Assembly: GCF_947305105.1 (NCBI RefSeq)
Contig: NZ_CAMZCS010000002.1
Coordinates: forward strand, 62,001-126,000
From: an uncultured Fibrobacter sp.
GTDB taxonomy: Bacteria > Fibrobacterota > Fibrobacteria > Fibrobacterales > Fibrobacteraceae
Direction: 5' to 3'
DNA length: 64,000 nucleotides
Shown: positions 6,679-64,000 of the stretch, one piece after another
Layout: the number at the start of each line of letters is the position of its first letter
Position numbering within the stretch: position 1 is the first letter of the stretch
Made by a program: the position numbers and the translations under genes
Notes under the pieces: model-generated
The model's input: the letters and a program-made list of their open reading frames with translations, nothing else
Database searches by the model: none
What the model was told of the DNA's origin: nothing

Positions 6679-7194
6679 ATGAAACATTCTATAGAGATGA
6701 AAAAAGGCTTCACAATGGTTGAGCTGCTCGTGGTGGTGTCCATCATGGGTATTTTGTCTACGATGGGTGTCGCGAGCCTGCATGCGGCCATCGTGAACAA
6801 CCGTGTCCGTGACGCTGCGTTGAATGTCACCGCTTACCTGGAGCGTGTGGCCAGCGAGGCAAACCGGCTATCTAGCAAGGTTTGTGTCAAAGCCAACGGA
6901 AATACAATTTCCGCATATAAAGGCGCCTCTTGTTCTGGAACAGCCATTAGCCATCACACCCTGGAGAAAGCGCTCTCTTTTGAGAATGCGACTCATAAAG
7001 ATTGCTCCTCCAGCTGGTACAATGGAGTCACCTTCGAACCCAAGTTCGGCTTGAGTGCGGCTCCGGTACAGGGGTGTATCGTTGTTAAATACAGTGGCGG
7101 CGAAAAGAAGGCCCGTGCGCTCAAGAAAAAAGAAAAGAACAACATTATCCCGCAAGTCTCTTACGATCGCGGCAATTCTTGGACGGACCTGTAG
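6679..7194 (+). CDS. FimT/GspH-like minor pilin
   Basis: 171 residues. A type IV prepilin leader ends in KKG, followed by FTMVELLVVVSIMGILSTMG: a class III signal with the prepilin-peptidase site G|F and Glu at +5. The hydrophobic N-terminal helix continues into a short globular part with four cysteines (residues ~75-135) that probably form disulphides. FimT/GspH-type minor pilins help prime pilus or pseudopilus assembly. First gene of a four-gene operon with 4- to 5-nt gaps or overlaps. The second pilin cluster at 58702 has no equivalent gene. Confidence 0.85.
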   Translation: MKHSIEMKKGFTMVELLVVVSIMGILSTMGVASLHAAIVNNRVRDAALNVTAYLERVASEANRLSSKVCVKANGNTISAYKGASCSGTAISHHTLEKALSFENATHKDCSSSWYNGVTFEPKFGLSAAPVQGCIVVKYSGGEKKARALKKKEKNNIIPQVSYDRGNSWTDL

Positions 7195-7198
7195 CCTT

Positions 7199-7651
7199 AT
7201 GAAAGATTTACGCAGAAAAATATTTGGCAACTTGTCCGGCTTCGGTATCGTCGAAGTGCTCATCTCTGCCGCCGTACTCGGCTTTTTATATCTCGCCCTC
7301 CTGCACATGCAGGTCGGCAACCGCGAAGCGCTCCTCAGAATCCGCGGCCGCGACGGCGCCGTCGAGGTGGCGCAGAACATCATCGATTCCCTCAAGACCG
7401 TCGGTGTGGCATCCATCGCGTCGTTTAGCAAAGACAACATCGTCAAGTCCTGGGAACGCGGTCCGGGTGGTACATCCACTGTGACTTACAAGGCCGACGT
7501 GACCGTAGGCAATGCCAACGAATACAAGGCTACGACAAAGTCCAACTACGAGAACGTTGAACATGTGTACGCCAAGCAGGTGGACGTCAAGGTTTCGTGG
7601 AACTTCAAGGGGTCAGAACAATCCGTCAATGTATCTAGCGTGGTAAGATGA
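7199..7651 (+). CDS. PilV/GspI-like minor pilin
   Basis: 150 residues from ATG 7199; the open frame extends further upstream but only inside the preceding gene. The prepilin site is SG|FGIVEVLISAAVLGF with Glu at +5. The segment LLRIRGRDGAVEVAQNIIDSL is shared almost unchanged with the paralogue at 58702. The C-terminal beta region ends in VSWNFKGSEQSVNVSSVVR, again matched by the paralogue. The stop overlaps the next ATG (ATGA), so translation is probably coupled. It is expected in the minor-pilin tip complex at the inner membrane. Confidence 0.85.
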   Translation: MKDLRRKIFGNLSGFGIVEVLISAAVLGFLYLALLHMQVGNREALLRIRGRDGAVEVAQNIIDSLKTVGVASIASFSKDNIVKSWERGPGGTSTVTYKADVTVGNANEYKATTKSNYENVEHVYAKQVDVKVSWNFKGSEQSVNVSSVVR

Positions 7652-8958
7652 AAAAATCCGGCTTTACCCTAGTTGAACTCATGGTCTACATCGGGATTGT
7701 CGGTGTGGTGGTCATCGTAGCGGGGCAGGCGTTCAGCAACAGCACCAAGATGCGAGTCCGCACCGAGAGCATGATCAAGGCCAATGCAACTGTCGAAGAA
7801 GCCGGGATGCTCATACAAGAAGATGTTGCCCAGATGGGCGCGAAGAGTGCGAAGGAGTCCGGAGAGGGTTCTGCGTCGGATGTGTTTTTCAAGTCGAACA
7901 TGGTTTACATGGATGCCGAGAACGGCGATTCCTCGTCTTTCCGCATAAATGGTGATTCCCTGATTCTCCGACGTATGAACTACGATTCGCAGGGGCGTTT
8001 TCTCTCTATCGAGGAAGTCGCCTGGTTCAAACGCAACAAGCAACTTTTCCGTACATGCAAGACGATTGACCGCGATAAAAGCAGGCTCCCGTCTGCACCG
8101 GAAACGTGCCCTGAGTCAAATCCGGCATCTGTGGAAATGTTGGATGACGTGGCTTTGTTTAATGTTATCCCGGCAAGACCGGCTGTCTTGAATAGCGAAT
8201 ATGGAGGCTCTACAGGTAGCTATCCTCGCTTGCTGCCGTCTCCAGTTAATGTAGCAGATCATTCTTTTAGACTGTTTCCGAGACTTGAAGGTGAAACTTT
8301 CTTCTCGGTGAATAGAATGCCGGAGAGGGGTGGCTCTATTGTGACTCTTTCTGATTTTGTTACGAACTACGATAAAGATCGCGAGCAAGCTTTGGAAACA
8401 AAGAAGGCGGTCCAGGTTTTTGTTGTCGGTGGAACCGGAGAACTTGCTTTGTCCTCTTCTTGGAATACAGTATGCACTCCGGTTAACTTGGACGCACAAG
8501 TAGATTACGAGTTGTCTTTCAAGGTTCCGTTCTTGGATGAAAATAAGATCCGTTCTTTTTCTCCAGAAATGGATCATATGACTGTTGGCTTTCGCAATAT
8601 GGATGGTCAAATGGATCCGGAGTTGCCGGATTTCACATTCTATCCCCCTGTTGATGGTTTTGCTAATAGTAAACGAGTTATGCGTTTTTCAGTCAAGAAT
8701 GATAAGAAAAATATGTGCCTTGCTTTTACCTTTGCCTTTTATTCTCCTTTAGCATCGAAGGGGAAACTTGCTATTAGCAATTTGGAGTTGAACAAGGTGG
8801 AAAATTCGAATTTCGTATTTAACGAAGGATATAGCCCTGAAATTCCAGACAAGGCGAATGTTAAAGCATTTAAATTAAAACTTCAGGTGCAAAAAAACGG
8901 AGAAAAAGGTGACGTAAATCTTGTCGTTCCTACTCCAAGCAACGGGCCGAAGGACTAA
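7648..8958 (+). CDS. PilW-like minor pilin with extra C-terminal beta domain
   Basis: 436 residues. The prepilin site is SG|FTLVELMVYIGIVGVVVIV with Glu at +5. Residues ~20-130 (GQAFSNSTK..RVRTESMIKA..DVAQMGAKS) are nearly identical to the paralogue at 59178. A ~100-residue segment near the C-terminus (YELSFKVPF through FTFAFYSPLASKGKLAISNLELNKVE) reads like a carbohydrate-binding or jelly-roll beta-sandwich and is also conserved in the paralogue. Ordinary PilW proteins lack such a domain. Base composition changes within the gene near 8100-8220: the 5' part is GC-richer and the 3' part AT-rich. Confidence 0.82.
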   Translation: MKKSGFTLVELMVYIGIVGVVVIVAGQAFSNSTKMRVRTESMIKANATVEEAGMLIQEDVAQMGAKSAKESGEGSASDVFFKSNMVYMDAENGDSSSFRINGDSLILRRMNYDSQGRFLSIEEVAWFKRNKQLFRTCKTIDRDKSRLPSAPETCPESNPASVEMLDDVALFNVIPARPAVLNSEYGGSTGSYPRLLPSPVNVADHSFRLFPRLEGETFFSVNRMPERGGSIVTLSDFVTNYDKDREQALETKKAVQVFVVGGTGELALSSSWNTVCTPVNLDAQVDYELSFKVPFLDENKIRSFSPEMDHMTVGFRNMDGQMDPELPDFTFYPPVDGFANSKRVMRFSVKNDKKNMCLAFTFAFYSPLASKGKLAISNLELNKVENSNFVFNEGYSPEIPDKANVKAFKLKLQVQKNGEKGDVNLVVPTPSNGPKD

Positions 8959-8963
8959 TTATT

Positions 8964-11900
8964 ATGAGAAAGATGAAAAAAGGTGTATCTCTTGTAACCG
9001 TGCTGCTGTTCATGATGGTGGCTACCATTGCAGCTACTGCTACGTATAAGTGGCTTAGTTCCATTGGAACTTCTTCGGCTGCGCGTCTGCAGATGAGTGA
9101 AGCTCGCCAAGCAGCAATATCGGGTATCGAAGCTGCTCGTTCGTGGATGACCTTTAAAGGCAATGACCTAGGTGCTGTTATTAGACAGTATTTTCAAGAA
9201 GGGAAAAAACCAATTTTGCTGAATTCTGTGTTGCCGAAAATGAAGGCGGGCAGGATGAATGACAGCGTTTGGCTTATGGGTGTGAATATTGAAAATTCTT
9301 CAAAATATAAATTGAAAATTGTATCGCTGGGAACGACAAGGGATAATGTGAAATATAGCGAAGTGGCTATATTCAATGTGAGTGGTTTATATCAAGCAGA
9401 AATTCCGACAGACGATCACATAGTGAATTTCAAGGATGCGTTCCATGGAGGCTTAACGACAGCTAACGTCATTGATGTATCATCGGCAATAATCAAGCAG
9501 ACTACCGCAGTAAAAAATGCAGGTGGTCAAGCTTTGACTTCCATTAAAGCAGATGAATACTTGGTCTTAGATGGCGATTTTTATGTAAATGATGGTGGAA
9601 ATGTCAATGATTTGTATGTGAGTGGCGATTTGTCTTTTTTGAAAAATTTGACCGTAGGAGGGAACTTGTATGTTGGGGGGAAATTATACGGAACTTCGAC
9701 TAGTAGCAGAATGAATGTTCTTGGCTCAACATACTTGAATGGAGGAATGAAAATCAACAATATGTCTCAGTATGTGAAAAATTCTGGGGCGTCTTATGCA
9801 GGTGGTGTAGGAGGACAGTTTAATTTTAATGGTAATGTCACGTCAAATGGTGATATCGACCATCTTAGCGGAGAAACAAGTGTCAGCTACATCAAAATGT
9901 CTAATAACCTTGTGCTGAATGGAAAACTTGTGTTCCCGTCAAATGCGTCAAAAAAAGATTCTTTGATTGTGTTACAAAACGCTTTTATTAGTGGTAATTC
10001 TACTAATTCGGGGAGCGTTGATTTTGATAACATGTATAAAACCCGTTTTGGCTCTGGCAGTGGCGATAAATTGTATTTCAATGGTTTTCAAACTTATACA
10101 GACAATAATGTGTGCGAAAACGGCTTTTATAAATGTGCTCAGTCTCAATCCGGTAATATTTATATTGCGCGCAGGAGTGAGCTGATTCCTATGCCTTCGC
10201 CGGAGGAAATCCGCGATTGGAATGCGGATAGTCTTGTTGCTTACCGCGATATGATATCGGGTGAAAAAAATCAATGCGGTTTTTCACAGGACAGAATTCA
10301 GTTTAATACTGCGATATTGGGATCTTCATTTGTTCATTCTGAAGATTCAAAACTTGGGTGTAGTGATGATATTTGGAAAAATGATATTGAAATTCCTGTT
10401 GAAGCACTTAATGCGTGTTATAACATAGCAAGTGGTGATGATCAACTTTTTGATAAAACCTGGTTAATCGTCAACTGGAATCATGCTCCTCAATGGAGTC
10501 CCCAAAAGAATATTGCTGCTGTAAAAAAACTATCAGGAAACTTTATTTTTGTCATCAATGAATCTTCGGCTCCTTTGGCTGAACTGGAACTGCCTGAAAC
10601 GGAAGCTGATGCTATGGTTATGCTTTATTTGCCCGATGGCTGGAAAAATACAAATCCTGGTTTTGCCTTGCGAACGAACTTAAATAAGAGTATCGCAGAT
10701 TACCATTATTTTATATATAGTGCAGGTGATATTGGACGCTTTATTACGAGGCCGTTGTCGCGTATAAAAGGCGGAATCTATATGGAAGGCTGTTCTATGT
10801 TGAATACGCTGGGCGGAAAGGATACTTTGGCGGTTGATTTTTATGAGCCGCTATTTAAAAGGTTGGTGAAATCTTCAGTGCTGTGTGAATATGATGGTAC
10901 TAAAACTTGTTCAAATTTCTCGGGGGCGGTGTCTGGATTTGGACCTGATATGTTCCAAACGATGGATCCATATCATGTTGCTACATCGCCGCAATTGATT
11001 GTAGAAATTGAATCACAGTATAAAAATAATGAACCTTTGCCGAAAACGGCGCAGGAAGTGAAACCTTCTGAAGTGGTTCTTCCTCGTGTAATCTATTTGC
11101 CAAGAGATGCTTATGGATATCTTTCGGATTATTATAACGTGTTAGCTTTGAATGGTTCAACTCAAACGAAGATTGCTTCGAATATGCATTGCCCAGAAGG
11201 TAAAATTCCAACAGCGGATTCTAAACTCTCAAGCGGAGGTGGACTACCTGAGGGAAAGTTCCTTTGTAGTTATGGTGATGGTGCTGATACGATACCGGTT
11301 TATTTAGTTGTGGAAGGATCCTTAAGTGAAAACTCTGGGGTGCATTTTGCTTCTGCAGATGAGAAAAAGGACATTGTATCGGGACATAGTGTTGATATTC
11401 ACTTAAGTGCGACAAAGAGTGATGCTACAATAGAGTTGGACATTTCAGTTCCTGAGAATCCACCAAGTGGGTGGACCATTGAAGGTGTTCATTCTGGTTT
11501 AAGCGTTAAAAGTACAGAAAATGGTAAGAAAATTTGGACTTTAAGAACTACGCCGACAGGAGATGATTTGACATTGTTCAAAGTCCGTACTACGGAACAT
11601 GCGGAATTGGGCTCGGTTATAATGAATCTTAAATCTTGTGTAAATGCAAGTTGTGTTATACTTCAACCGTCGCAATCATATGTGTATATGTCGAACCGTG
11701 TTGTGGTGGAAAGAGAAGATGTCAGATGTGACAACATAAATACAGGTGCTTTTAAGCATGCGTATGGTTTTGAATGCAGTGAATTGGCTAGTATGCCCGC
11801 ATGTGACCATTATAAAGATGATAACGGAAAAGACAGTAAAGTTTGGGTTACGGCAAGAGGTCAGGGGTGTTTTGCTCTTGAACCACCGAATGAACGCTGG

Positions 11901-14900
11901 GATTGTTATACTGGGAGTAATCAAGTTTATTTAGATAGTGTTTTAGTAGATGATGATTATTGTACTGCATATATACCGCCAAAGACGGTAGAATTATCTT
12001 CGTATGAATCTGTTTACAAATTGCCTGCGGTGCTCAAACGCAAGAGAAGTCCATTAAAGATAAAAATTGTTAATCCAAATAGTCAAAGGGCAGTGAATAT
12101 AAAAGTTCATCGAGCTGGTAACGATGAGGTTTCGCATAAGTGTGATGATGAGTGCTCTTATGGATTGTATGCTGATGACACTGTATATATATCAAAAGAG
12201 GGTCCGAGGTTCTCTTATTGGACATGTTATGGTACGTCTTGTAATGATAGTGACCCGAATAAGACTTATAGTGAATCTGAAATGAAATTGCTGCTAAAGG
12301 GTGGAATGGATTCTGTCACTGCGTGGTTTGATCAGAAGGATGGTCATTGTTTCTATACGAATTTTCAAGATTTCAAGAGTGACGATTGGTGTAGCCTATC
12401 CGATATTGAAGCAAGAAAACAATGCCTTGATAGCTGCAAAAATGGAGCAAAGCACTGCTCTGCAGGACAAACTCCGTATGAAGGATCTGTTGAAGGTTCG
12501 GATTGGTTGATTGTTTATTCGAACGACAACCGAAACAATGGCAATGGCTTCGCCCTTCCTCAGATTGACAATAGAGAAGGAAATTTGATGCATCCAAAGG
12601 ATTTTGGTAGGAAAGTTATTCTTAAGCAAACTATAGGAAAACCGACTGTTATTTTGAACAACGCTTTAGCTGGTTCAAATGGCATGATGACGGCTATGTT
12701 GAAAATTCCATCTGCTACTTCACAAATTATTAGTAGTGTAGAAAAATTTTTGACCGACAATCCCCTAAAAAAATTTATAAAGATGATTCCTTTGGTTGGA
12801 AATGCTTTTGAAATAATTGACGATTTCGTAACAGCAATGCTAAAGAATAGTCTACTAATTCATGAAGGTCTTATTATTCGATCTAATGCCGATGCTTCGG
12901 AGTATTTTACTTTGAATATTGTGGCAAAGGAGCCGATTGTTTTTGCTAGGCTATGTTATGTCCAGGGACAAGATAATGATATAGATCATTGCCATGACAT
13001 TCGATTTGAGACTGGATTTAATGACGATTGGCCTACAACGGCGTCCCGTTTGAGCCGGTTGACCTTGAATGTTGATGTTGACGGAAGTGTTATAAAGGCT
13101 ATTTTGAGTAGGAACTGGTTGCAAGGTTCTTTTGAAGCCGGTATGGCCTCGGTGGAATTTGATTTGAATGATCCTGTGTTGAAACAGAAATTTAATGGTA
13201 ATACCTTGAATGATGATCTTCATCAATATGTTGGGTTGAAGATTGGATATCCATATATTATTAGAATAGATATAGAACCTTTCTTCCTCCTCCCTAAGGG
13301 CTATCAAGAAACAATTGCGACTTTCCCTGCCCTTGAGTTCTTTGATGTTGGTTGGCGCAGTTATGATTATGATGCGAATTGCTGGGATACCCCGAAGGTT
13401 AGTTGTTCGTTTAAGCCGAACTATGCAGGGGGAATGGTGCCGGATTCAATCGATGTGACCCCATGGGTTGGGATGTCTTCGTGGTTCGATAACCAAAATT
13501 GTGATGTTACTTACTATTACAATGGTTGCGATTTGCGTCAAGATAAGTTCGCGCAACATTTCCAGATTTTAACGGATCATGTATATACGGGTAATGAGGT
13601 CGCTTGTAAACTTCGTCGCCCGCGTGGTTCTGGCCTGTACAATTTCTCAGGCCGAAAATTAAGTACGTTTGGATTGGGTCGTTTGGCATCAGATAAATAT
13701 TGGTTTGAAGATGAAGGTTATCATGGATATCCAATAGAAACTGCTAGAGCAAGTGGATTTGTTAATGAAGCTTCTGTTGTTGTGACCTGTAGAAGGGATG
13801 AGGAGACCGATAATACGCATATTTATGATGCAAGTTGTGGTGACTTTATTGTGGGTGAATATGAACAATGCTCGGAATCGTTCACTAAGATGTTATCTTA
13901 TCCGGTGAACTGTAATATGGGCGATTTGGAGTGCCCTGTTACTCTGGACACTGTTTACAATGTTCGCGAAGCTAATCTCATAATTACGTTGGATGAAGAG
14001 ACAACGTCAAATGTTGAGCCTTATCTTGTAGATCTTGATAGTAATGTGAGTGCGCTGAATGTTAAAAAGTTAAATGCAACGGAATATCTTATTGATGTTG
14101 AGTCTGCTTCAGGTGCTCCGGGCTTTAATCCGCAAAATGTCGCTCAGATTAAATTCAAAAATGTTTCATCCTATTTTAGAGTGACAAATGTGAGGAGCGA
14201 TTGTCGTTATGCATTTAATGTGGAATGTAATGCTCCATCGTACAATTCCATAACCGGGATGTGGACTGTTTCGGCCGTTGTAACTCATCCGGAAAAGGCT
14301 GAGTCTTGTGAAGTTATTCCTTTAGATGATGCTTCTGGAGCCGATATTCCTGATCCGCAATCTTGTGGCATTGATTTTATGCAGATGTTCAAGCAAGAAG
14401 GTGTATATGGTCAGAACATTGTTCGAAATTACGCATTTAAGGTGGTTGCTAGGGATGATGATGGTGAAGTGATGGATTCTTGTGTGACTCCTGTGAAAAC
14501 GGTGGATCCTTTGGAGATTCATTGCTCTACCACGCCCGATACAGTGGAATCCGGAATGGGAGTTTCTCCGTTAACATTTAGGGTGGAAAATTGTCCGCCG
14601 GAAGGTTGTGACTATACTATTGAATATCCTCCTGAGTTTAATCTTGAGACAAAATCGGGAAAATATATGGGCGGAGAAATCGTTCACTGTCCAGATGAAA
14701 ATTGTATGAAATTTAATACATCTAACAACAAGCTTCCGTCAACGCCGAATCCGTATGTATATGATCTTAAAGTGATGGGTCGTTTCACATGCCCGTATGA
14801 TTCAAATGAATTCTATGTGGCCCCGGAACCTGAAAAGGGAACATGTAATGACCATAAGATTGAGGATGGTTACTTCGTTGCCCACATAGGCTTTGCTCAG

Positions 14901-16529
14901 GATGGCTATTGGGGGGGAACCATCGCCGGAAGCGCAAGAATTGTGTATACCGATATGATAGGAAACGTTATTGGTATTGAAAGTCAGCATATAGGCACAA
15001 ATGCGTTGCACAAAGATTCTACAGAATTATTTAACGAATATATCAAGGGCAAAGATGTTGAATTGAGGTACAAGTTGCCTGAAAATATGCTTAAGTGCAA
15101 TAAGGGTGTCTGTACGTACTTGGTGACGCTATTGCTACATGGTGGGGATTTCTGCTCCGAAAAGTGGAATGTTCGTAACTTGAAAGGCCTCAACTCCAAT
15201 TGTCCATCTATAGAGAACCAGAATCCCAATAGCGGAATTACTTTCAGACCTGTTATGAGTGGTTGTGAAGATACATTGTGTGTTTGGTCTGTTTGGAGGA
15301 ATGATGAAGAACTTAAACATGGCTCTAAGTACAATGGCATGGATGCTTTGACTTTTGACAATCTTGGATTGGGATCGGCAGGAACGAAAACATACCGCTT
15401 CAAGGTCTCTGCGGAAGACGAATATACCTCTGCTTTGGATAGCTGTGATTTTAGCGTAACTTACACGAATGATGCGCTTAGTGTCACAAATTGTGGTTTT
15501 GTTGGTTCTGCAGACTGGGGTGGATACGCTCAATATTCGTTTGCAACGAATTGTGCCAATTGTGAGTATGAACTTCGATCAAGTTCGCGTGTAATCTCTG
15601 GAAAAACCAGTGTGAATGAATATGATAATACTTCAGTTTCTGTTTCTCCTATTACAAAGATGGAACAGTTTGAATTGACTGTTAATCATCAAAAGATTAA
15701 TGGATGCACCGCGACGCCCTCTTTGAATGCGGTAATTCCGAGTTGTAAAATCGAAGATAAAACGGAACTTTATAGTGATGAATCCGCTCGTTTTACAGCA
15801 ACCTTTAATACTTGTGAAGATGGTAGCTGTGAGTGGCCTTGGGTGCTCAAGAAAAATGGTGGTGAAATCTACTCTGGTACGGTTAAATCCAATGAGATGA
15901 TTGAAAAGGTGGTTACTGGTGGCGGTACGTATGCCTTGTATCTCAATGGCAGTAATGAAGCCGCCTGTACGATATATGTGACGAATGTTGATCGTCCTTC
16001 CAGTGCTGTAGGCAGTTGTTCGTTTGATAAACCAGATGGATATGCATATGGGGCCACTGGTATAAAATTTATTGTGAATGGTCTTACTGCCAATATTGAA
16101 CCTTGGCACATTAAAAAAGTTCCGACTGAAGCTATTGTCAGAAATGGAACTTTTGAACAATATATTATGGATGAGCGAAAAGAATTTGATATGCCTACAG
16201 ATTTTGCGGCCGACAATAAGAGAATTGGTGCATATAAATTTGAATTGCCTAATAGCGATGTGCCTCCTTGTACCTCTGAACTTAAAGTGAAAACGCCAAG
16301 GGTGAGCCGCTGTGAGAGGTCTTGTAGTGGCAAATTCTTTGGAATTTGTACGGGATACAAACTCGACATAACGGTGGAGAATTGTGCGAATTGCTCATAT
16401 TATGTGGTAGAGGGAAATAAACGTGGGTCTATATCGACTTCTGCGACAGTTACTGATCTAAGAAAGAATGACTATACTGTACGTCTTAATGATGATAATT
16501 CTACTGATAAAAAATGTTCCAATAAATAG
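8964..16529 (+). CDS. Giant PilX/GspK-like modular pilin, probable pilus-tip adhesin
   Basis: 2521 residues. The N-terminus MRKMKKG|VSLVTVLLFMMVATIA is prepilin-like but has Thr, not Glu, at +5, as in the GspK/PilX class that sits at a pilus tip. Residues ~30-150 resemble the PilX pseudopilin region (ARQAAISGIEAARSWM). Next comes a Gly/Asn-rich stretch (~185-330; for example LTVGGNLYVGGKLYG) that looks like a beta-solenoid. It is followed by a long body with many Cys pairs, including Ig-like units in the last ~900 residues (motifs such as ENCPPEGCDYTI, NCANCEYEL and ENCANCSYYV). The N-terminal ~1150 residues are colinear with the protein at 60479. The gene is AT-rich, last in the operon, and followed by two terminators. 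No PilY1 gene is present, so this protein may fill that role. Adhesin function is inferred. Confidence 0.8.
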   Translation: MRKMKKGVSLVTVLLFMMVATIAATATYKWLSSIGTSSAARLQMSEARQAAISGIEAARSWMTFKGNDLGAVIRQYFQEGKKPILLNSVLPKMKAGRMNDSVWLMGVNIENSSKYKLKIVSLGTTRDNVKYSEVAIFNVSGLYQAEIPTDDHIVNFKDAFHGGLTTANVIDVSSAIIKQTTAVKNAGGQALTSIKADEYLVLDGDFYVNDGGNVNDLYVSGDLSFLKNLTVGGNLYVGGKLYGTSTSSRMNVLGSTYLNGGMKINNMSQYVKNSGASYAGGVGGQFNFNGNVTSNGDIDHLSGETSVSYIKMSNNLVLNGKLVFPSNASKKDSLIVLQNAFISGNSTNSGSVDFDNMYKTRFGSGSGDKLYFNGFQTYTDNNVCENGFYKCAQSQSGNIYIARRSELIPMPSPEEIRDWNADSLVAYRDMISGEKNQCGFSQDRIQFNTAILGSSFVHSEDSKLGCSDDIWKNDIEIPVEALNACYNIASGDDQLFDKTWLIVNWNHAPQWSPQKNIAAVKKLSGNFIFVINESSAPLAELELPETEADAMVMLYLPDGWKNTNPGFALRTNLNKSIADYHYFIYSAGDIGRFITRPLSRIKGGIYMEGCSMLNTLGGKDTLAVDFYEPLFKRLVKSSVLCEYDGTKTCSNFSGAVSGFGPDMFQTMDPYHVATSPQLIVEIESQYKNNEPLPKTAQEVKPSEVVLPRVIYLPRDAYGYLSDYYNVLALNGSTQTKIASNMHCPEGKIPTADSKLSSGGGLPEGKFLCSYGDGADTIPVYLVVEGSLSENSGVHFASADEKKDIVSGHSVDIHLSATKSDATIELDISVPENPPSGWTIEGVHSGLSVKSTENGKKIWTLRTTPTGDDLTLFKVRTTEHAELGSVIMNLKSCVNASCVILQPSQSYVYMSNRVVVEREDVRCDNINTGAFKHAYGFECSELASMPACDHYKDDNGKDSKVWVTARGQGCFALEPPNERWDCYTGSNQVYLDSVLVDDDYCTAYIPPKTVELSSYESVYKLPAVLKRKRSPLKIKIVNPNSQRAVNIKVHRAGNDEVSHKCDDECSYGLYADDTVYISKEGPRFSYWTCYGTSCNDSDPNKTYSESEMKLLLKGGMDSVTAWFDQKDGHCFYTNFQDFKSDDWCSLSDIEARKQCLDSCKNGAKHCSAGQTPYEGSVEGSDWLIVYSNDNRNNGNGFALPQIDNREGNLMHPKDFGRKVILKQTIGKPTVILNNALAGSNGMMTAMLKIPSATSQIISSVEKFLTDNPLKKFIKMIPLVGNAFEIIDDFVTAMLKNSLLIHEGLIIRSNADASEYFTLNIVAKEPIVFARLCYVQGQDNDIDHCHDIRFETGFNDDWPTTASRLSRLTLNVDVDGSVIKAILSRNWLQGSFEAGMASVEFDLNDPVLKQKFNGNTLNDDLHQYVGLKIGYPYIIRIDIEPFFLLPKGYQETIATFPALEFFDVGWRSYDYDANCWDTPKVSCSFKPNYAGGMVPDSIDVTPWVGMSSWFDNQNCDVTYYYNGCDLRQDKFAQHFQILTDHVYTGNEVACKLRRPRGSGLYNFSGRKLSTFGLGRLASDKYWFEDEGYHGYPIETARASGFVNEASVVVTCRRDEETDNTHIYDASCGDFIVGEYEQCSESFTKMLSYPVNCNMGDLECPVTLDTVYNVREANLIITLDEETTSNVEPYLVDLDSNVSALNVKKLNATEYLIDVESASGAPGFNPQNVAQIKFKNVSSYFRVTNVRSDCRYAFNVECNAPSYNSITGMWTVSAVVTHPEKAESCEVIPLDDASGADIPDPQSCGIDFMQMFKQEGVYGQNIVRNYAFKVVARDDDGEVMDSCVTPVKTVDPLEIHCSTTPDTVESGMGVSPLTFRVENCPPEGCDYTIEYPPEFNLETKSGKYMGGEIVHCPDENCMKFNTSNNKLPSTPNPYVYDLKVMGRFTCPYDSNEFYVAPEPEKGTCNDHKIEDGYFVAHIGFAQDGYWGGTIAGSARIVYTDMIGNVIGIESQHIGTNALHKDSTELFNEYIKGKDVELRYKLPENMLKCNKGVCTYLVTLLLHGGDFCSEKWNVRNLKGLNSNCPSIENQNPNSGITFRPVMSGCEDTLCVWSVWRNDEELKHGSKYNGMDALTFDNLGLGSAGTKTYRFKVSAEDEYTSALDSCDFSVTYTNDALSVTNCGFVGSADWGGYAQYSFATNCANCEYELRSSSRVISGKTSVNEYDNTSVSVSPITKMEQFELTVNHQKINGCTATPSLNAVIPSCKIEDKTELYSDESARFTATFNTCEDGSCEWPWVLKKNGGEIYSGTVKSNEMIEKVVTGGGTYALYLNGSNEAACTIYVTNVDRPSSAVGSCSFDKPDGYAYGATGIKFIVNGLTANIEPWHIKKVPTEAIVRNGTFEQYIMDERKEFDMPTDFAADNKRIGAYKFELPNSDVPPCTSELKVKTPRVSRCERSCSGKFFGICTGYKLDITVENCANCSYYVVEGNKRGSISTSATVTDLRKNDYTVRLNDDNSTDKKCSNK

Positions 16530-16559
16530 TTTTTTTGAGCTAGATTTCTAAACATTTCA

Positions 16560-16584
16560 GGACCCCGCCCCGCGGGGTCCTTTT
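16560..16584 (+). terminator. Intrinsic terminator of pilin operon 1
   Basis: Stem GGACCCCG/CGGGGTCC with a 5-nt loop and TTTT after it, 30 nt beyond the giant-pilin stop codon. Confidence 0.85.
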
Positions 16585-16594
16585 GCTATATAAA

Positions 16595-16622
16595 ACGGCT
16601 CCCCGTCGGGAGTCGTTCTTTG
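16595..16622 (+). terminator. Second hairpin terminator, member of a local repeat family
   Basis: Stem ACGGCTCCC/GGGAGTCGT (one G.U) followed by TCTTTGTCTTGT. The same hairpin recurs at 17759-17780 and 18161-18182, where it terminates the Rpn-like genes on the other strand. Confidence 0.65.
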
Positions 16623-16733
16623 TCTTGTAAACATCTTTTTCTGGAAAAAAGAGCCGCTAAATTCGTCTATAGGTACAGGCGGGAACAAGTCCTGCTTGCG
16701 TAGCGGGCGCGTCCCCGCGAAAGAGGTCAGAAA

Positions 16734-18153: not shown

Positions 18154-18160
18154 TGAAAAA

Positions 18161-18182: not shown

Positions 18183-18201
18183 TCGTATGAATGCGTTTGA
18201 T

Positions 18202-29955: not shown

Positions 29956-29980
29956 CAACGTTAAATAAAATTTAGCGTTG
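29956..29980 (+). promoter_or_regulatory. Operator-like inverted repeat upstream of GH10 gene 2
   Basis: Arms CAACGTTAAAT and ATTTAGCGTTG (one mismatch/G.U) around AAA, 75 nt before the ATG. Could be a regulator site or a weak hairpin. No convincing -35/-10 pair could be assigned. Confidence 0.4.
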
Positions 29981-30055
29981 ATATTGTCTCAACAGGAATT
30001 ATTTTTAGTAAAAATGGTTTGGGTTGTAGAGTTATCCACAATGAGGTTAAGGAAA

Positions 30056-43160: not shown

Positions 43161-43167
43161 GTTAATT

Positions 43168-43196
43168 AATATACGCTTTGAAAAATCAAAAGTCAA
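43168..43196 (-). promoter_or_regulatory. Leaderless-type promoter of TIGR02147 gene 2
   Basis: On the minus strand TTGACT (43196-43191), 17 nt, TATATT (43173-43168), then seven nt to the ATG. Matches the layout at 19403-19438. The sequence CTATTGACT is common to both. Confidence 0.7.
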
Positions 43197-43276
43197 TAGT
43201 TTATAGTACATTTTTCCTATTTTTGTCCATTTTTTGCAATTTTTTGTTAGTTGTAAAACGGATAATTTCTATTTAT

Positions 43277-56210: not shown

Positions 56211-58496
56211 ATGCCTATGATGCGTTTGTCCGTACTTGCCTATTTCTTGTTGTCGGCTCTTGTGGCGACGTTTTGGGCGTGCTCTAATGACGATTCTTCC
56301 CGTGACACGGTTCGCCCTGTTGACCCTGATATCATAGAGCCCGATACGACGAATGCGGATACAACCAAAAAAGACACAACCCATACAGACACGACGCGGT
56401 CGGATTCTATCAAAACTGATACACTTCCTGTTTTTATCCAAAACGAGAACGAGTACACGGGTTTCTACAAAGAAGACGGCTATGCAGCTTTCCGCAAGTT
56501 GGCCTACACGTCGAAGACGGAAATGGGCTCGAGCTACCTGGTGAAATTTGTCATTACCGGCTTCGATACAGATTCTCCCGAAGTTCATTTCATGAACACG
56601 AAGGCGTACCCGATACATTACGACTTTGCGGAGATGGTTCTGCACGATACCCGCACGGTGTTTGAATTCGAAAGCGAGACGTATTTCACGACAGAGAAGA
56701 ACACGGTTGCCGGTACGCTTGCGTACTACGCTTCCATCGATTCCATGATTGCGCTGACATTCTTCCCGACGGATTACATTACGCCCGAACAGGTGGCTAC
56801 GGTCTATAAATTAATTGAAGAACGTATGCTGTTCCTTTCTCCGGGGGCATCCAAGAATTGCCTGTTCTACATGCCTGCGGGGGCGAATGCCGAGGATGCT
56901 GCCGCCGAATATGCCGCTGAGTTCAAGGTGGCGAACATCCCTGTCTATACACATGCCCAGTTGTTTGGCGATATACCGTTCTTGATAATGAACACTGGGA
57001 CTGCATACGGAATGCTTCGAAAGCTCACTGCCGCGGAACTCGATACGGCGATTGTCTCTTCGCACGACATTTTGATTCTCGAAACGCTCCCTGCCGAAAT
57101 TCCGCTTGCCGCAGCGACCATCAGCAAAGATGCGCAAACTCCGCTTTCGCACGTGAACCTGGCCGCGAAGGCCCGCAAGACGCCGAACATCGCGTTTAAC
57201 GGCAACGAACTTCCCGATAGCCTGCTCGCCCTTTGCGGAAAACTGGTGAAGTTGGAAGTCAAGTCAAATTCCTATACGGTGGTCGAGGCCACTCTAGACG
57301 AGGCAAAAGTTTTCTGGAACAATAGCGTGCGCGACCCGGTGACGCTCACCTACGATTTGACGGATTCGGGCTTCATCGATTTCGCGGACCTCGATTTCAA
57401 TTCGGCGAAATCGGTGGGTGTGAAGGCCGCGAACCTTGCGGAACTCCACAAACTGCTCCCCGACAACTCGCCCGACGGCTTCGCCGTGCCGTTCTACCAC
57501 TACAGCCATTTTATGGATTACGCCCAGGTGACCGGGGAACTTTGCGAACGCTCCTTTGCCGACTGCGGGGCCGAAGGTCGCTCTTCGGAAATATGTACCC
57601 AGGTAAAAACCGCCTGTGCTGGCGCCCTGCAGGTTTTGGACGCTGAATCAAAGACCGCTGAGCCTGTCGAAGCGTCCTCAACAAGTTCCCTGAGCTTTTC
57701 GAAGGGAACATCTCTCCGCAACTACATTACGTCTTTGGTTTCCCGCGAAGACTTTGCCGCCGATACGCGCCTCCGCGAAGCGATGCTCGACAACATCCGC
57801 TACATGTTCAAGCACATCCCCGTCGAGAAATCCTTCGGCGAAGCTCTCGATGCCAAGGTGCGCGGGCTTTATGGCGAAGCCGGTGTGCGTTTGCGTTCCA
57901 GCACCAATTCCGAAGACTTGAGCGACTTCAACGGAGCGGGTCTCTACAAGTCCGTCAAGGCCACCACGCGCGAAAAGGACCTTCCATCCGACGAAATCCG
58001 CAAGGTGTGGGCTTCCGTATGGAGCTTCAAGGTCTTCGAGGAACGTTCCCTCTGGAACATCGACCACTTCTCGGTGCAGATGGCCGTGGCCGTGCATGAA
58101 TCCTACCCGGACGAAGTCGCGAACGGCGTCATCATTACGCAGAATATCGCGGACTACTCGGTTGCCGGTATCTATGCGAACATCCAGGTCGGCGAAACGT
58201 CCGTCACCAATCCCGAAGGCGGTGAACTCCCGGAAATCATTTCCATCATCCCCTCGCCACCGCCGCAGCGCGGCGTGCAGAGCGTGCTCTTGCAGCATTC
58301 TACCCTCTGCCCCGATTCGCTAATCCTCAATAGCGGCGAAATCTACGTGCTCTACCGGACCGTCAAGTTGATCCAGGACCACTTTGCCTCGCTTTACAAG
58401 AAAAACGCCGACGCCCTTGCCCTTGATATCGAGTTCAAGGTCATGGGGGAGGACCGCAGGATGGTGTTCAAGCAGGTCCGACCCTACATTAATTAG
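56211..58496 (+). CDS. Lipoprotein with PEP-synthase/PPDK-like domains
   Basis: 761 residues. A signal peptide with lipobox FWAC is followed by a Thr/Asp-rich linker (DTTxxDTT repeats, ~35-70). Residues ~85-290 are unassigned. Then a swivelling phosphohistidine-like motif TPLSHVNLAAKARKTP (His314, ~300-350) and a PPDK/PEP-synthase N-terminal ATP-grasp domain (~400-761): VGVKAANLAELHKLLP..GFAVP, VRLRSSTNSEDLSDFNGAGLY, final FKQVRPYIN. The His domain comes before the ATP-grasp, the reverse of PPDK. An ATP-using fold on an exported lipoprotein is unexpected. Two palindromic repeats are inserted in frame at residues ~482-500. Follows the poly-Ser lipoprotein by 15 nt. Confidence 0.82.
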   Translation: MPMMRLSVLAYFLLSALVATFWACSNDDSSRDTVRPVDPDIIEPDTTNADTTKKDTTHTDTTRSDSIKTDTLPVFIQNENEYTGFYKEDGYAAFRKLAYTSKTEMGSSYLVKFVITGFDTDSPEVHFMNTKAYPIHYDFAEMVLHDTRTVFEFESETYFTTEKNTVAGTLAYYASIDSMIALTFFPTDYITPEQVATVYKLIEERMLFLSPGASKNCLFYMPAGANAEDAAAEYAAEFKVANIPVYTHAQLFGDIPFLIMNTGTAYGMLRKLTAAELDTAIVSSHDILILETLPAEIPLAAATISKDAQTPLSHVNLAAKARKTPNIAFNGNELPDSLLALCGKLVKLEVKSNSYTVVEATLDEAKVFWNNSVRDPVTLTYDLTDSGFIDFADLDFNSAKSVGVKAANLAELHKLLPDNSPDGFAVPFYHYSHFMDYAQVTGELCERSFADCGAEGRSSEICTQVKTACAGALQVLDAESKTAEPVEASSTSSLSFSKGTSLRNYITSLVSREDFAADTRLREAMLDNIRYMFKHIPVEKSFGEALDAKVRGLYGEAGVRLRSSTNSEDLSDFNGAGLYKSVKATTREKDLPSDEIRKVWASVWSFKVFEERSLWNIDHFSVQMAVAVHESYPDEVANGVIITQNIADYSVAGIYANIQVGETSVTNPEGGELPEIISIIPSPPPQRGVQSVLLQHSTLCPDSLILNSGEIYVLYRTVKLIQDHFASLYKKNADALALDIEFKVMGEDRRMVFKQVRPYIN
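57656..57674. repeat. REP-like palindromic element a (inside PPDK-like gene)
   Basis: CGCTGAGCCTGTCGAAGCG, arms CGCT/AGCG, with core GAGC-CTGTCGAAG related to the next element and to the one in polA. Confidence 0.7.
57685..57709. repeat. REP-like palindromic element b (inside PPDK-like gene)
   Basis: Arms GTTCCCT/AGGGAAC around GAGCTTTTCGA. The inner 20 bases match the reverse strand of the polA element at 18 positions. Encodes SSLSFSKGT in frame. Confidence 0.8.
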
Positions 58497-58701: not shown

Positions 58702-59181
58702 ATGTTGCTAGGTAAGGCTCTTAAAAGAAGGAAGGGCTTCGGCATCGTAGAGGTGCTGGTTTCCGCTGCTGTCCTTGGATTTTTATATCTCGCCCTGATG
58801 AACCTGCAGTTAGGGAATCGGCAGACGTTGCTCCGCATTCGTGGGCGTGATGCTGCAGTTGAGGTGGCACAGCAGGTGCTCGATTCGTTGCAGGCAAATG
58901 GCGTGAATGCTTTACCGGCTGCAGATGATGGAAATCCTGTCATAGTAGATGGCTTGGATTATGAACGCACCTGGGAGCGGGGTACCGGAATTCTAGGAGA
59001 TAAGTCCCGTATAGTCTACAAAACAAAAATCAAGGTAATGCCTGATTCTGCCTATGTTGTAAAAAACAAAACGGGTTTGGACTCTATATCGCATGTATAT
59101 GCAAAGAATGTTGTCGTGACTGTCAGTTGGCCTTTTAAGGGGTCCACTCAGTCTATAGATATTTCGGGGGTGATTCGATGA
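58702..59181 (+). CDS. PilV/GspI-like minor pilin (operon 2)
   Basis: 159 residues. Prepilin site KG|FGIVEVLVSAAVLGFLYLAL with Glu at +5. LLRIRGRDAAVEVAQQVLDSL and the terminal VSWPFKGSTQSIDISGVIR match the operon 1 protein at 7199. First gene of the cluster: no FimT/GspH-like gene precedes it. GAGGTTGAG lies before the ATG. The stop overlaps the next ATG (ATGA). Confidence 0.85.
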   Translation: MLLGKALKRRKGFGIVEVLVSAAVLGFLYLALMNLQLGNRQTLLRIRGRDAAVEVAQQVLDSLQANGVNALPAADDGNPVIVDGLDYERTWERGTGILGDKSRIVYKTKIKVMPDSAYVVKNKTGLDSISHVYAKNVVVTVSWPFKGSTQSIDISGVIR

Positions 59182-60470
59182 ATAACAAGAAGGGTTTTAC
59201 TCTCGTCGAACTGTTGGTATATATGGCCATTATTGGCGTCATTGTTATTGTTGCTGGGCAGGCTTTCAGTAATAGCACAAAAACTCGGGTCCGCACACAG
59301 AATATGATCAAGGCGAGCAGCCTTGCTGAACAAGTTGGTATGCTTCTTCGCGACGATTTGGCTCAGATGGGGGCGAAGTCGTCTTTGGGTGCGTCTGGAT
59401 TTGAACAGATTCCTGTGTCTGTTGCGGAAGACGACAAATCTTCATTTGTTTATTTTCATGATGAAACAAATGAGTTTGACAGCCTTTCGATGTTGCGTGT
59501 CGTTAATAATGACAGCGGGAAGTGTGTTCGTGTGGAAGAGGTCAAATGGAGTGTTCGCGATGGCATACTTTATCGATCTTGCATGACTAAGAGTGTCGAT
59601 CCCGATTTATGCAAAAATGAATCAGATTCCGAGAATTGTCCTTCGACGGCTCCACTTGCTGTTCAGATTGCGGATGGTGTGACAAAATTCAGGTTGATTC
59701 CTGCGACGCCTAATCTGTTGGGTGGAGATCAACAAATTTTCCCGACTTCTTCGGCAAGTGGTATGTTCCGTATGCTTTCTAGAGTGGATCCGTCAAGAAA
59801 TATTGTTGCAATGAGTGTGAGACCGCAACCAGATGAGTCGGCTTCAAATGTTGTGCGATTGTCCGGTTTCAATACGAACTACAAGGAGACGCCTGCGGAG
59901 GGCGACCCGATAGTGTATCACCAAGCTTATGTACTTGATGCTAGTTCTGTATCTTGGCAATGGAAAGATTGCGCTCGGATTCGCCTAATGAAGGGGGCTA
60001 CTTATGAGATATCATTCTCTATGCCGGTTAACGAAGATGCTTCGCGAATGTTCCGCCCGGGCAAGGACCATTTTGCCGTAGGCATTCGTGATACTAAGGA
60101 AAATTTATTTAGAAAGATTGCCGATGTGCCTGATGTTTTAGTATATCCGCCAGAGACGTATGAGGGCCGTGGAGTACGACGGATGCGTTTTTCGAGCAAG
60201 ATTGCCGACGACGAAACCGATGTGTGTATTGCTTTTACTTTTGCAACGTTCTCGCCTTTGGTTGGCGCCGGAATTATTTCAATATCCAATTTAAAGGTAA
60301 TGAAAATTGCGGATGACAATTATAGCTTTGTGCCTAACTATGTGCCGGATGTAGTGGATAAACCTTTCGTGCGGGCGTTCAAATTGGAGTTGCAACTAAA
60401 TCGTAAAGGTGAATCCGGTGAAGTTGATCTTGTTATTCCTGTACCTAGTAATGGTCAAAAAGAAGAATAG
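59178..60470 (+). CDS. PilW-like minor pilin with extra beta domain (operon 2)
   Basis: 430 residues. Prepilin site KG|FTLVELLVYMAIIGVIVIV with Glu at +5, then GQAFSNSTKTRVRTQNMIKAS..LAQMGAKS as in the protein at 7648. The middle is variable. The C-terminal beta-sandwich (YEISFSMPVNEDASRMFRPGKDHFAVGIRD..CIAFTFATFSPLVGAGIISISNL) is conserved with its paralogue, as is the end PVPSNGQK. AGGAGG for the next gene overlaps its stop codon. Confidence 0.84.
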   Translation: MNNKKGFTLVELLVYMAIIGVIVIVAGQAFSNSTKTRVRTQNMIKASSLAEQVGMLLRDDLAQMGAKSSLGASGFEQIPVSVAEDDKSSFVYFHDETNEFDSLSMLRVVNNDSGKCVRVEEVKWSVRDGILYRSCMTKSVDPDLCKNESDSENCPSTAPLAVQIADGVTKFRLIPATPNLLGGDQQIFPTSSASGMFRMLSRVDPSRNIVAMSVRPQPDESASNVVRLSGFNTNYKETPAEGDPIVYHQAYVLDASSVSWQWKDCARIRLMKGATYEISFSMPVNEDASRMFRPGKDHFAVGIRDTKENLFRKIADVPDVLVYPPETYEGRGVRRMRFSSKIADDETDVCIAFTFATFSPLVGAGIISISNLKVMKIADDNYSFVPNYVPDVVDKPFVRAFKLELQLNRKGESGEVDLVIPVPSNGQKEE

Positions 60471-60478
60471 GAGGCTTT

Positions 60479-63400
60479 ATGAGAAGTATGCAAAAAGGTG
60501 TATCTTTAATAGCTGTTTTGCTGTTCATGCTCGTAGCGACTATTGCAGGGACGGCGACCTATAAGTGGCTTTCGTCTGAAGGCTATACTTCGGCTTCTCG
60601 ATTGTTGATTAACCAAGCCCGAGCATCGGCCTTGGCTGGTGTGGATGCTGCTCGCTCCTGGATGAGCTCTCATGGCAATGAAACGGGTGCCATTGTAAAG
60701 CAGTTCTTTGAAAGAAATAAAAAACCAATTATTTTGAATAGCGTCCTTGCTTCTATGGGTAAGGAAACTCAGGGATTTGATGTTTATCTTGTCGGTGTTG
60801 ATTTTAATCCGGCCAATCCGGTGTATAAAATGAAAATTTTGTCAAAAGGCTATGTTGATGGTCGAGATGTCTCTTATACAGAAAGTGCTGTACTCAATGT
60901 GACAGGCTTGTATCAGGTTCGGATTCCACAGGAACAACAAGCTGTAAATTATAGTTATGCTTATTTTGGTGGATCGACGTCTTATTCTGGGACCCATCAT
61001 GTATCGGCAATGTTGATTAATGGTGATTGGGGCGGTACTAATGGGGCAAACCCAGGATATTTTGATTCTGACTTTATTGTTACTGGGAATGTCCGCTTAA
61101 GTGGTAACAATATGAATATTGGAGGAACAACTTGCGTTGGTGGAAATCTTGTTGCAGATAACGGCTTTTGGGGCAATGATTTGTATGTTGATGGATTTGC
61201 TCACAAGGAAGGAAATAATGGCAATGATTTTGTGGGCCAAATTGCAAGGAATGCTTATTTTAATGGTGATGTCACCATTGGAAACCAGGCTAATCCGGGT
61301 TTTGATATTCAGGGTAGCATGACCTTGAATGCAACATTGAGAACGCAAGTGGAAAAATTTGGACATTCTATACATGGCAATCTTTGCCTTGGGCAAAATG
61401 CAAGGATTGAGTTTGATAATACTCAGAATAGTTGGGGATACAATTGGCTTGTTGGAGGAAATGTGTGGATTCCGACGTCAAAGGAGGGCCCTCGTGAGAC
61501 AGGAATTGTTACTCATGATGATGTAAATGACACGAAACGTGTATTTGGTGGAAATTCGTCTTCTAAACTTTATATTGCTGATGCGGAGGTGTGTGCATCG
61601 TCTTGTCCAAGTACAGACAAACCGACCAAACAGAAGCATACTCCGGGAAATACTGTATCATCATTTGTTTCGAACGGCGATATATTTACCGAATTGCCTA
61701 ATAAAGCTCCATTTGAGTGTGCAGAAAGTGTTAAGGCATATTGTGATACAATTTGGCATAGAGTTGCTCCTCATGAGAAAAAGTGTGGGCATGCCAAATA
61801 CAAGGTGGATGATTTGCTGAAAATAGGGTATTCCCAATTTGAGGAATATGCCAATGTTGCTGCAAATTCAAGTGTAAATGCATGCAAAAACTTGACGAGT
61901 TTTAGAAAAGATGATAATAATGGTAATACGCAGGATATGAATAATTGTTGGGATTCGCTTATGGCTAATTCCTCATGGCGCTCCACATATTTGTTTAATG
62001 ATTATCTTGTTCTTAAATTGTCATATGGTCAAAATGATGGCTCTCTTATTGATGGCTCTGATAAGACCCGATTGAATGGCAAATTTATATTTATTTTTGA
62101 AAATCCTTTACCTGGTGAAGTCCATTTTCCGAGAACAACTGCAACTACGCGGGCCTTTGTTTATTTGATGGAGGGTGTGTCTCAGAAATTGTATTGTTCT
62201 ACAAATGATACCTATAACTATTTTATTTTTACCGAAAAAAATATAGCTGAGATGGATGGCTCCTGTACTTGGAGTGGCTCCGTTTATGCAAAGGTAGACA
62301 CTAATTGTGCGGCTGTACCTACAATAAATGGTAATATTACATTGGAATACAACAAGAGCCTGATTGAAGATATGGTTAATAGTGGAATTGTCTGTACAAA
62401 TGACCATCATCCAGAAAAACCATGCCCAGTCGGAGCAGATGAACAAGGATCCTCCTCTTCTACCGTTAATAACAATTTTAGTTTGGACCTATTTGATGTG
62501 TCTCATATTTCTACAGGAACACGATTGAATGTTACGGTAGAGTCTGAATACAAGAGTGACGAACGGATTAAAGAAGCTGCAGAAACCGTGAAGCCATCGA
62601 TATTGGTATTGCCTCGTGTTGTTTATATTAATAAAGATGCTCCGGGCTATATGAAAGACTATTTGTCGGTAATCCCGCTAAATGGTTTCCCTGTAATTCA
62701 AAATCAGCCGAAGCTTTCGTGCCCTGAGCAGCCGGGTGCCCCAGAAATGTCTGCAACAAAAAAGATTTCAACTAAAGTTCCTACACAGGGTGTTTACAAT
62801 TGTATTGCTGAAGTAGAACAATCAGGCAAGAAAGACACATCCCTTTTCTACGTTTATGTTGCGGGTGAAGCGGCTTCGACACCGATGGTGCATTTTTCAG
62901 GTGATCCCGCACATGACTTCCATTCGGGAGAGACGAATAGTGCGGTTTTGTCCGTAGTTGTTGGCCCTTCAGAATCTGGGGCTCAAGTGCATGTCTCTAT
63001 TTCCATGACGGATTTGCCTAATGGATGGACTGTGACTAATCTGGATAATTCGCAAATTGCGTGGTATATCGGTAACGATGGTTCCCGATCTATCCAGAAA
63101 ACGTTCACCCCTTCTGCCACTGAAGAGACTGTTGTGCAACTATTCAAGGTCGGGACGGGAAGTAACCCGATATCTGGAACTGTTCGATTTACGCTTCATT
63201 CTCCTCAGGGGTGTATCATTGGTGGTGGTGCCGTCGTGAAAGCTTACAATATTCAGGGGCATGTTACAATCCATCGTGCATCATTGGCTCAATATTGTGC
63301 CAAGTATCCAGATAAATGTGATGCGCATCCTGAGTATAAAGAGGCAAAGGATTTACAAGACTGCGATGCTGAAGGAATCTGGGTGCGTGCGAATGGTGTC

Positions 63401-64000
63401 GGATGTAATCCGATAACGGGATATGAAAATGATCGTTGGTTGTGTGATGCTGGTGTCGGAGCTGCGAATCATATTGTCCTTACGAAAGGTGAGTATAGAC
63501 GTGAATACTGTGAATTGTATATCCCGACGGAAGCGGAGAAGAACTACATTGAAGACCCCAAAGACGATAATGTAAATCCGGGGGGAGACACCCTCTATGC
63601 ATCGCTTAAGCGTAAACATTACACGCTTACGATTAAAACGCGTTACGCTTCGGCGGGGTCTGCGGTGAGAGTGGATACGTCAAGTACATTTGGTTCAGGG
63701 TATCATCAACTGGGTACACTGTGTTCTTCAAGTAAGGGATGCTCTTATACTATCTATGCAGGGCAAACTGTAAGGTTAGAAGCTGTGCCTCTGGGTGATG
63801 ATGAATTTAAATATTGGGAAGATGGAAATTCGAATTCCTCCAACGTTCAAATCAATGTTTCTCCGTATGAGTTCATGATCAGTAGAAATGAAACCTATAC
63901 GGCGGTGTTCAATGAAAAAGATCCACATTGTTTCTATACCGAATTCAAGGAGTATACAGGTCCGGGTATTTGGTGCCGCGACGACAGGATCAAATGTATT
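60479..64000 (+). CDS. Giant PilX/GspK-like modular pilin, 3' end beyond window
   Basis: Open from ATG 60479 (AGGAGG four nt upstream) to the last base: 1174 residues visible with no stop. The N-terminus MRSMQKG|VSLIAVLLFMLVATIAG has Ala instead of Glu at +5. The region ARASALAGVDAARSWM is PilX-like. A Gly/Asn-rich solenoid-like part (~170-300; NMNIGGTTCVGGNLVADNGFWGN) follows, then domains colinear with the 8964 protein: VKPSILVLPRVVYI against VKPSEVVLPRVIYL, WVRANGVGCNPITGYENDRWLCD, a VDTSSTFGSGY..AGQTVRLEAVP InlB-type beta-repeat and HCFYTEFKEY against HCFYTNFQDF. AT-rich like its paralogue. Confidence 0.82.
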   Translation, partial: MRSMQKGVSLIAVLLFMLVATIAGTATYKWLSSEGYTSASRLLINQARASALAGVDAARSWMSSHGNETGAIVKQFFERNKKPIILNSVLASMGKETQGFDVYLVGVDFNPANPVYKMKILSKGYVDGRDVSYTESAVLNVTGLYQVRIPQEQQAVNYSYAYFGGSTSYSGTHHVSAMLINGDWGGTNGANPGYFDSDFIVTGNVRLSGNNMNIGGTTCVGGNLVADNGFWGNDLYVDGFAHKEGNNGNDFVGQIARNAYFNGDVTIGNQANPGFDIQGSMTLNATLRTQVEKFGHSIHGNLCLGQNARIEFDNTQNSWGYNWLVGGNVWIPTSKEGPRETGIVTHDDVNDTKRVFGGNSSSKLYIADAEVCASSCPSTDKPTKQKHTPGNTVSSFVSNGDIFTELPNKAPFECAESVKAYCDTIWHRVAPHEKKCGHAKYKVDDLLKIGYSQFEEYANVAANSSVNACKNLTSFRKDDNNGNTQDMNNCWDSLMANSSWRSTYLFNDYLVLKLSYGQNDGSLIDGSDKTRLNGKFIFIFENPLPGEVHFPRTTATTRAFVYLMEGVSQKLYCSTNDTYNYFIFTEKNIAEMDGSCTWSGSVYAKVDTNCAAVPTINGNITLEYNKSLIEDMVNSGIVCTNDHHPEKPCPVGADEQGSSSSTVNNNFSLDLFDVSHISTGTRLNVTVESEYKSDERIKEAAETVKPSILVLPRVVYINKDAPGYMKDYLSVIPLNGFPVIQNQPKLSCPEQPGAPEMSATKKISTKVPTQGVYNCIAEVEQSGKKDTSLFYVYVAGEAASTPMVHFSGDPAHDFHSGETNSAVLSVVVGPSESGAQVHVSISMTDLPNGWTVTNLDNSQIAWYIGNDGSRSIQKTFTPSATEETVVQLFKVGTGSNPISGTVRFTLHSPQGCIIGGGAVVKAYNIQGHVTIHRASLAQYCAKYPDKCDAHPEYKEAKDLQDCDAEGIWVRANGVGCNPITGYENDRWLCDAGVGAANHIVLTKGEYRREYCELYIPTEAEKNYIEDPKDDNVNPGGDTLYASLKRKHYTLTIKTRYASAGSAVRVDTSSTFGSGYHQLGTLCSSSKGCSYTIYAGQTVRLEAVPLGDDEFKYWEDGNSNSSNVQINVSPYEFMISRNETYTAVFNEKDPHCFYTEFKEYTGPGIWCRDDRIKCI

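Follow-up and report, generated by a model that had tools for sequence, protein, structure and literature searches.

The unit that varies in the minor-pilin cassettes of Fibrobacter is the distal part of pilW together with the giant PilX/GspK-like prepilin gene that follows it, and the strongest evidence for this is allelic replacement between close relatives. What is new here is that the DNA from mid-pilW to the stop codon of the giant is synonymously saturated between near-identical flanks, and that the sets of cassettes differ at the gpmI-pheS locus. The window analysed is a stretch of 64,000 nucleotides (C2:62001-126000) from a 3.57-Mb Fibrobacter genome (G000). Allelic replacement is visible only when close relatives are compared, and was therefore beyond the reach of the sequence-only reading, an earlier interpretation of this one stretch as part of an expandable family of pilus-tip cassettes. 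Taken as a whole, that interpretation is partly supported.

The gene order pilV, pilW, giant PilX-like gene occurs twice in the window (Table 1), as had been claimed, and in both copies pilV and pilW overlap by ATGA (7648-7651 and 59178-59181). Three further claims, that cassette 2 lacks fimT, that the two giants are paralogues, and that the second has at least 1174 residues, also hold: the nearest gene upstream of cassette 2 is an unrelated 761-aa ORF (56211-58496), giants 1 and 2 align across the length common to both (BLASTP 3e-97), and giant 2 reaches 2169 aa when followed beyond the window edge. The count of two cassettes had to be corrected, as G000 has three. Cassette 3 (C2:129210-136667) lies directly outside the window, about 220 bp after giant 2, and consists of pilW and a 2013-aa giant, with neither pilV nor fimT. 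The pilin module has three matches in the genome and no more; between the three giants it is 50-58% identical, the remainder of the proteins being mostly ~20-36% identical.

Table 1. Features of the minor-pilin cassettes, in window coordinates unless marked C2
Feature	Position	Strand	Remarks
fimT/GspH-like minor prepilin, cassette 1	6679..7194	+	171 aa; N_methyl 1.5e-6; GspH-type NCBIfam matches below cut-off
pilV/GspI-like minor prepilin, cassette 1	7199..7651	+	150 aa; TIGR02523 PilV weak (E 0.0016), below cut-off
pilW/GspJ-like minor prepilin, cassette 1	7648..8958	+	436 aa; N_methyl 5.5e-6
Giant PilX/GspK-like prepilin 1	8964..16529	+	2521 aa; no Pfam match above cut-off
Conserved pilin module of giant 1, aa 1-150	8964..9413	+	most conserved stretch of the family; cleavage expected after Gly7
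Allelic divergence block, distal pilW to just beyond the giant 1 stop	8101..16640	.	near-identical flanks in G029
pilV-like minor prepilin, cassette 2	58702..59181	+	159 aa
pilW-like minor prepilin, cassette 2	59178..60470	+	430 aa; N_methyl 8.5e-9; ATGA overlap with pilV
Giant PilX/GspK-like prepilin 2	60479..64000 (cut by window end)	+	full length 2169 aa, to C2:128988
Pilin module of giant 2, aa 1-150	60479..60928	+	AlphaFold2 helix 10-64, sheet 98-148
Predicted beta-solenoid of giant 2, ~aa 160-640	60956..62398	+	regular short strands in model; hhalign E 3e-30 to short PilX of other classes
C-terminal extension of giant 2, start	62399..64000	+	arrayed beta-domains with many cysteines in models; missing from short PilX of other classes

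The N-termini of the cassette proteins are prepilin-like, as the same reading had proposed. Those of the giants have the form of a class III signal peptide, with a short hydrophilic leader ending in Gly or Ala and followed by 20-25 hydrophobic residues; nearly all of 37 aligned giants show the motif [K/R]xG|(V/I)SLxxVLxFMLVATIA, in which the Gly is invariant. In most giants the N-terminal transmembrane segment is the only one. As is characteristic of K-type pilins, the giant is the last gene of an H-I-J-K-like operon. Its position 5 is Thr or Ala, not Glu, and K-type pilins may lack Glu5. The N_methyl model (PF07963), which does match fimT, pilV and pilW, finds no match in the giants. Under curated cut-offs the giants score 12.9-14.7 bits for GspK (cut-off 130) and 12.9 for PilX_N (cut-off 25.5), and their best sub-threshold match is GspK, with E 0.017-0.06.

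The pilin module is conserved far more than the remainder of the giant, in a profile built on one MAFFT alignment that is approximate in the variable parts. Both this profile and the structural models show a pilin module joined to an extra module beyond the pilin fold, the arrangement that defines a modular pilin. Homology to the short PilX of other classes covers the first ~640 residues of the giants and almost all of the shorter protein (hhalign 99.8%, E 3e-30); on sequence comparison, the rest of the giant extends beyond these shorter proteins at the C-terminus. For giant 2, two AlphaFold2 models (mean pLDDT 82 and 79) give, in order, the pilin helix and sheet, short regular strands with a helical insert, and a long run of beta-domains. 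The short-strand region is a predicted beta-solenoid; as a sequence query it returned weak matches to other solenoid proteins, ComZ itself being unmatched. Giants longer than 1900 aa contain a mean of 70 cysteines. Foldseek returned generic beta-sandwich arrays for both half-models, and no binding fold is therefore claimed.

Four candidate features were dropped. A ConA-like jelly-roll, suspected at aa 1165-1420 of giant 2 from an NSG(F/I)xxR motif and the strand pattern, produced one weak PF06439 match (E 0.021) among 37 members and no PDB sequence match. A carbohydrate-binding module suspected by eye in the PilW insert found no support, and an InlB-type repeat at aa 1088-1147 of giant 2 fell below its cut-off (E 0.001). 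Nor did the fetched loci support an origin by fusion with a stand-alone extension gene: the three relevant ORFs there seem to be truncated, split or contig-edge giants.

Of 111 Fibrobacteraceae genomes, 95 have the giant N-terminus, as do 53 of the 56 good-quality ones, with one to three giants per genome and open frames mostly of 2000-3200 codons. The named relatives, F. intestinalis ATCC 43854 among them, are for the most part Fibrobacter metagenome bins. Searches of the full-text literature for Fibrobacter with PilX found no paper, and those with minor pilin gave matches that by their titles and abstracts are on other topics; the family is near-universal in Fibrobacteraceae and apparently undescribed so far. 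The size and duplication that had been picked out as exceptional are both real, but they are family-wide and not specific to G000. The notion of an expandable family agrees with the variable number and orientation of the copies, which combine a conserved N-terminus with a divergent C-terminal part, as predicted.

Among 46 full-length giants, a non-random sample picked for reach, pilW is the directly upstream neighbour in 41; in four others pilV adjoins the giant and pilW is in the same operon, and for the last no neighbour was found. The order fimT-pilV-pilW-giant occurs in many genomes and varies in one genus (g4), for example as pilW-fimT-pilV-giant. pilV and fimT are not always present: many cassettes are pilW and giant alone, some of them in head-to-head pairs. 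Beyond Fibrobacteraceae the same operon, sometimes duplicated, ends in a gene for only ~540-670 aa, and in one order-level relative for 1500 aa. The adjacent pilin genes Fisuc_0251-0253 and 1016-1017 of Fibrobacter succinogenes S85 may belong to cassettes of the giant type. Two contigs labelled as Bacteroidales bins (L111 and L150) carry Fibrobacter-type giants and are probably mis-binned. In G098 (L087:6113 onward) the giant frame ends at 1562 aa and is followed by an open frame matching the extension, which suggests an interrupted copy.

A search for PilB, PilC, PilQ and a prepilin peptidase, suggested as a check in the sequence-only reading, came out in its favour. Judged by its predicted genes, the genome has a type IVa pilus machine at other loci: PilM, PilN and PilO grouped with a secretin (C41), PilB with a c-di-GMP-type MshEN domain (C14; L088:8406-10355), PilC and PilT (C3), PilA-like genes (C8), and the single prepilin peptidase of the genome, a PilD homologue with both domains present (C31). 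Pilus extension may be tied to the substrate through the MshEN domain of PilB; c-di-GMP is reported to increase on cellulose (PMC6851124). PilY1, which that reading had also noted as absent, has no PF05567 match in any of 168 Fibrobacterota genomes, G000 included, at cut-offs at which no control genome registered either, so that its absence from the phylum is suggestive and not proof. The giants likewise lack a match to the PF05567 beta-propeller.

It seems probable to us, though by no means sure, that each cassette specifies a tip complex of a type IV pilus in which the adhesin is borne by the K-type (PilX/GspK/ComZ-like) pilin itself, with PilW and giant forming allelic cassettes. For this complex we infer tip position, adhesion, secretin passage, ligands and selective force. 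The giant would be cleaved by PilD, be threaded through PilQ one small domain after another, sit at the tip together with PilW, PilV and FimT, and assume the presenting role of PilY1.

A rival explanation takes the cassette as the GspH-I-J-K set of a type II secretion pseudopilus, and the giant as an oversized GspK acting in the envelope or in secretion, not as the adhesin of a long pilus. We regard it as rather unlikely. The cassettes share with the type II set the gene order and a last member lacking Glu5, GspK is the top sub-threshold match of the giants, and the genome also has genes for a second secretin and for a GspE-like ATPase. However, GspK has ~300 aa, the giants are far longer and fall below the GspK cut-off, and a Cys-rich arm of 2000-3200 aa is hard to fit in a periplasmic pseudopilus. 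Moreover, the operon is close to neither secretin, the best (still weak) match of the I subunit is PilV, and the alleles are strongly divergent, which is typical of exposed proteins.

This divergence is bounded when cassette 1 is compared with G029, where its flanks are mostly 97-100% identical. fimT is near-identical except for a polymorphic middle (6801-7050, 70-90%), the PilV protein is 100% identical (pS 0.009), and codons 1-60 of pilW have a pS of 0.025. Divergence starts at ~8100, with little or no match in many 150-bp windows; by the substitution pattern of successive segments, the distal two thirds of pilW lie inside the divergent block. Across giant 1 pS is 0.75 and synonymous sites are saturated, after which identity is back to 96-100% at ~16,700. 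This saturation points to alleles that diverged long ago and is more than rapid protein evolution alone would explain. In cassette 2 the contrast with the flanks is the same, and cassette 3 is about as similar to G029 as its own flanks are (~90%), up to the last ~50 codons. No close donor for the divergent alleles of giants 1 and 2 was found among 80 genomes of the genus, one per species; DNA matches of 500 bp or more are only 63-74% identical and cover parts of the gene.

In the tree, the three cassettes of G000 fall into three clades, each with orthologues in G029 and G030, and the duplication is therefore old. For giant 2, G029 groups with G030 (100/99), and for giant 3, G000 and G029 are sisters, a conflict of the kind expected from recombination. 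At the gpmI-pheS locus, the flanks are 92-98% identical among the compared genomes, and the cassettes between them number one in G060 and two in tandem in G063, while G064 and G022 have head-to-head pairs belonging to partly different clades. Cassettes 2 and 3 of G000 adjoin the same gpmI gene.

Pili are common phage receptors, and divergent blocks in near-identical flanks are the usual mark of surface structures used by phages. The giants might accordingly be tip proteins whose diversity is driven mainly by phages, through receptor escape, and not by different substrates; as the main cause this is quite improbable, the presence of up to three cassettes per genome also fitting separate binding roles. 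Several of the comparison genomes are metagenome bins (G029, G038, G069 and G030 among them), and although assemblers are able to join a divergent block to common flanks, an artefact linking the flanks of one strain to the cassette of another is very improbable, as the alleles are intact orthologous open frames in the same position, the pattern recurs at two loci, the variation in cassette sets at gpmI-pheS is also seen in the near-complete, low-contig genomes G060, G063 and G064, and even a chimaera would imply that the population contains divergent alleles with these flanks side by side.

With the cassette read as a pilus tip complex, exchange of the PilW-giant block would alter the exposed tip, and selection could act through surface ligands, through escape from phages, or through the two together. 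Cellulose or the plant cell wall would be the candidate ligand that is most plausible from the biology of the host. With their near-universal presence and strongly divergent alleles among close relatives, the giants are strong candidates for the means by which fibre-eating Fibrobacter grip surfaces or are recognised. A more tentative extension, which is possible but on balance doubtful, is a serotype-like exchange of tips: PilW and giant would be swapped as a cassette, the set held at a conserved locus would change (gpmI-pheS being this locus in one species group), and one machine would present the tips of the strain, setting which plant polymers are held and which phages infect.

The modular pilins of Streptococcus sanguinis, PilB with a vWA domain and PilC with a ConA-like lectin domain, also combine a pilin module with a large extra part, and in that species tip presentation does without PilY1 (PMC8179133). 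The giants differ in being two to three times larger or more, in extra domains for which no known binding domain was identified, in their diderm host, and in the exchange of PilW-giant cassettes between relatives; they were missed by the N_methyl-based survey (PMC8179133) because they do not match the model. ComZ of Thermus thermophilus (PMC6561018) is, as the giants would be, a K-type pilin beside minor pilins, with a large beta-solenoid on the pilin, which in the giants is a prediction, and a proposed tip position. It is a DNA-binding protein of 554 aa without the C-terminal extension of the giants (PMC6561018), and no sequence match between the two was found. Myxococcus xanthus is similar in that several paralogous minor-pilin clusters serve one pilus machine, every cluster having a large tip adhesin to itself (PMC7541494, PMC13190605); three minor pilin/PilY1 clusters that differ in their tip adhesins have already been described there (PMC13190605). 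Its adhesin is a separate, non-pilin PilY1, whereas the adhesin-like part of the giants is continuous with the pilin. In F. succinogenes S85 type IV pilins have been linked to cellulose adhesion, and the available parts of the genome and proteome papers describe small pilins and fibro-slime proteins, with no mention of a giant pilin (PMC3079729, PMC4668043, PMC6851124). On the best reading of these comparisons, the giants would represent the modular-pilin or ComZ idea at extreme size, together with Myxococcus-like paralogous clusters and the exchange of PilW-giant cassettes.

How Fibrobacter attaches to cellulose is a long-standing question, for which fibro-slime proteins and a few small pilins are the proposed players. 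The giants are a near-universal family of very large candidate tip adhesins, and clear targets for gene removal. They suggest that diderm T4aP can dispense with PilY1 when the K-type pilin has the adhesin built in, and that close relatives swap tips as cassettes. Such cassettes would offer a way to study which substrates a strain chooses, and its sensitivity to phages, in the rumen and gut.

All three cassettes lie inside ~33 kb in G029, G039 and G030, and the ~42 kb between the two window cassettes of G000 is therefore attributed to rearrangement. Some 37 kb of chromosomal-looking genes (~18100-55250) split cassette 1 from cassettes 2 and 3, which is not so in these relatives. The intervening stretch appears chromosomal by eye, and rearrangement is therefore preferred to a mobile element between the cassettes. 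Directly downstream of giant 1 are two ORFs (16734-17702 and 18202-19314) that by eye resemble recombination-promoting nucleases of the Rpn type (PD-(D/E)XK), with a near-identical repeated stretch nearby (~17800-18600); the two ORFs are conceivably relevant to recombination at this locus. Also by eye, the ORFs at 19438-20259 (+) and 42327-43211 (-), ~22 kb apart, are paralogues with similar N-termini (MKPIIEYQDY...), and those at 28376-29836 and 29978-31588 are tandem paralogues with a common AQETLRSLA start.
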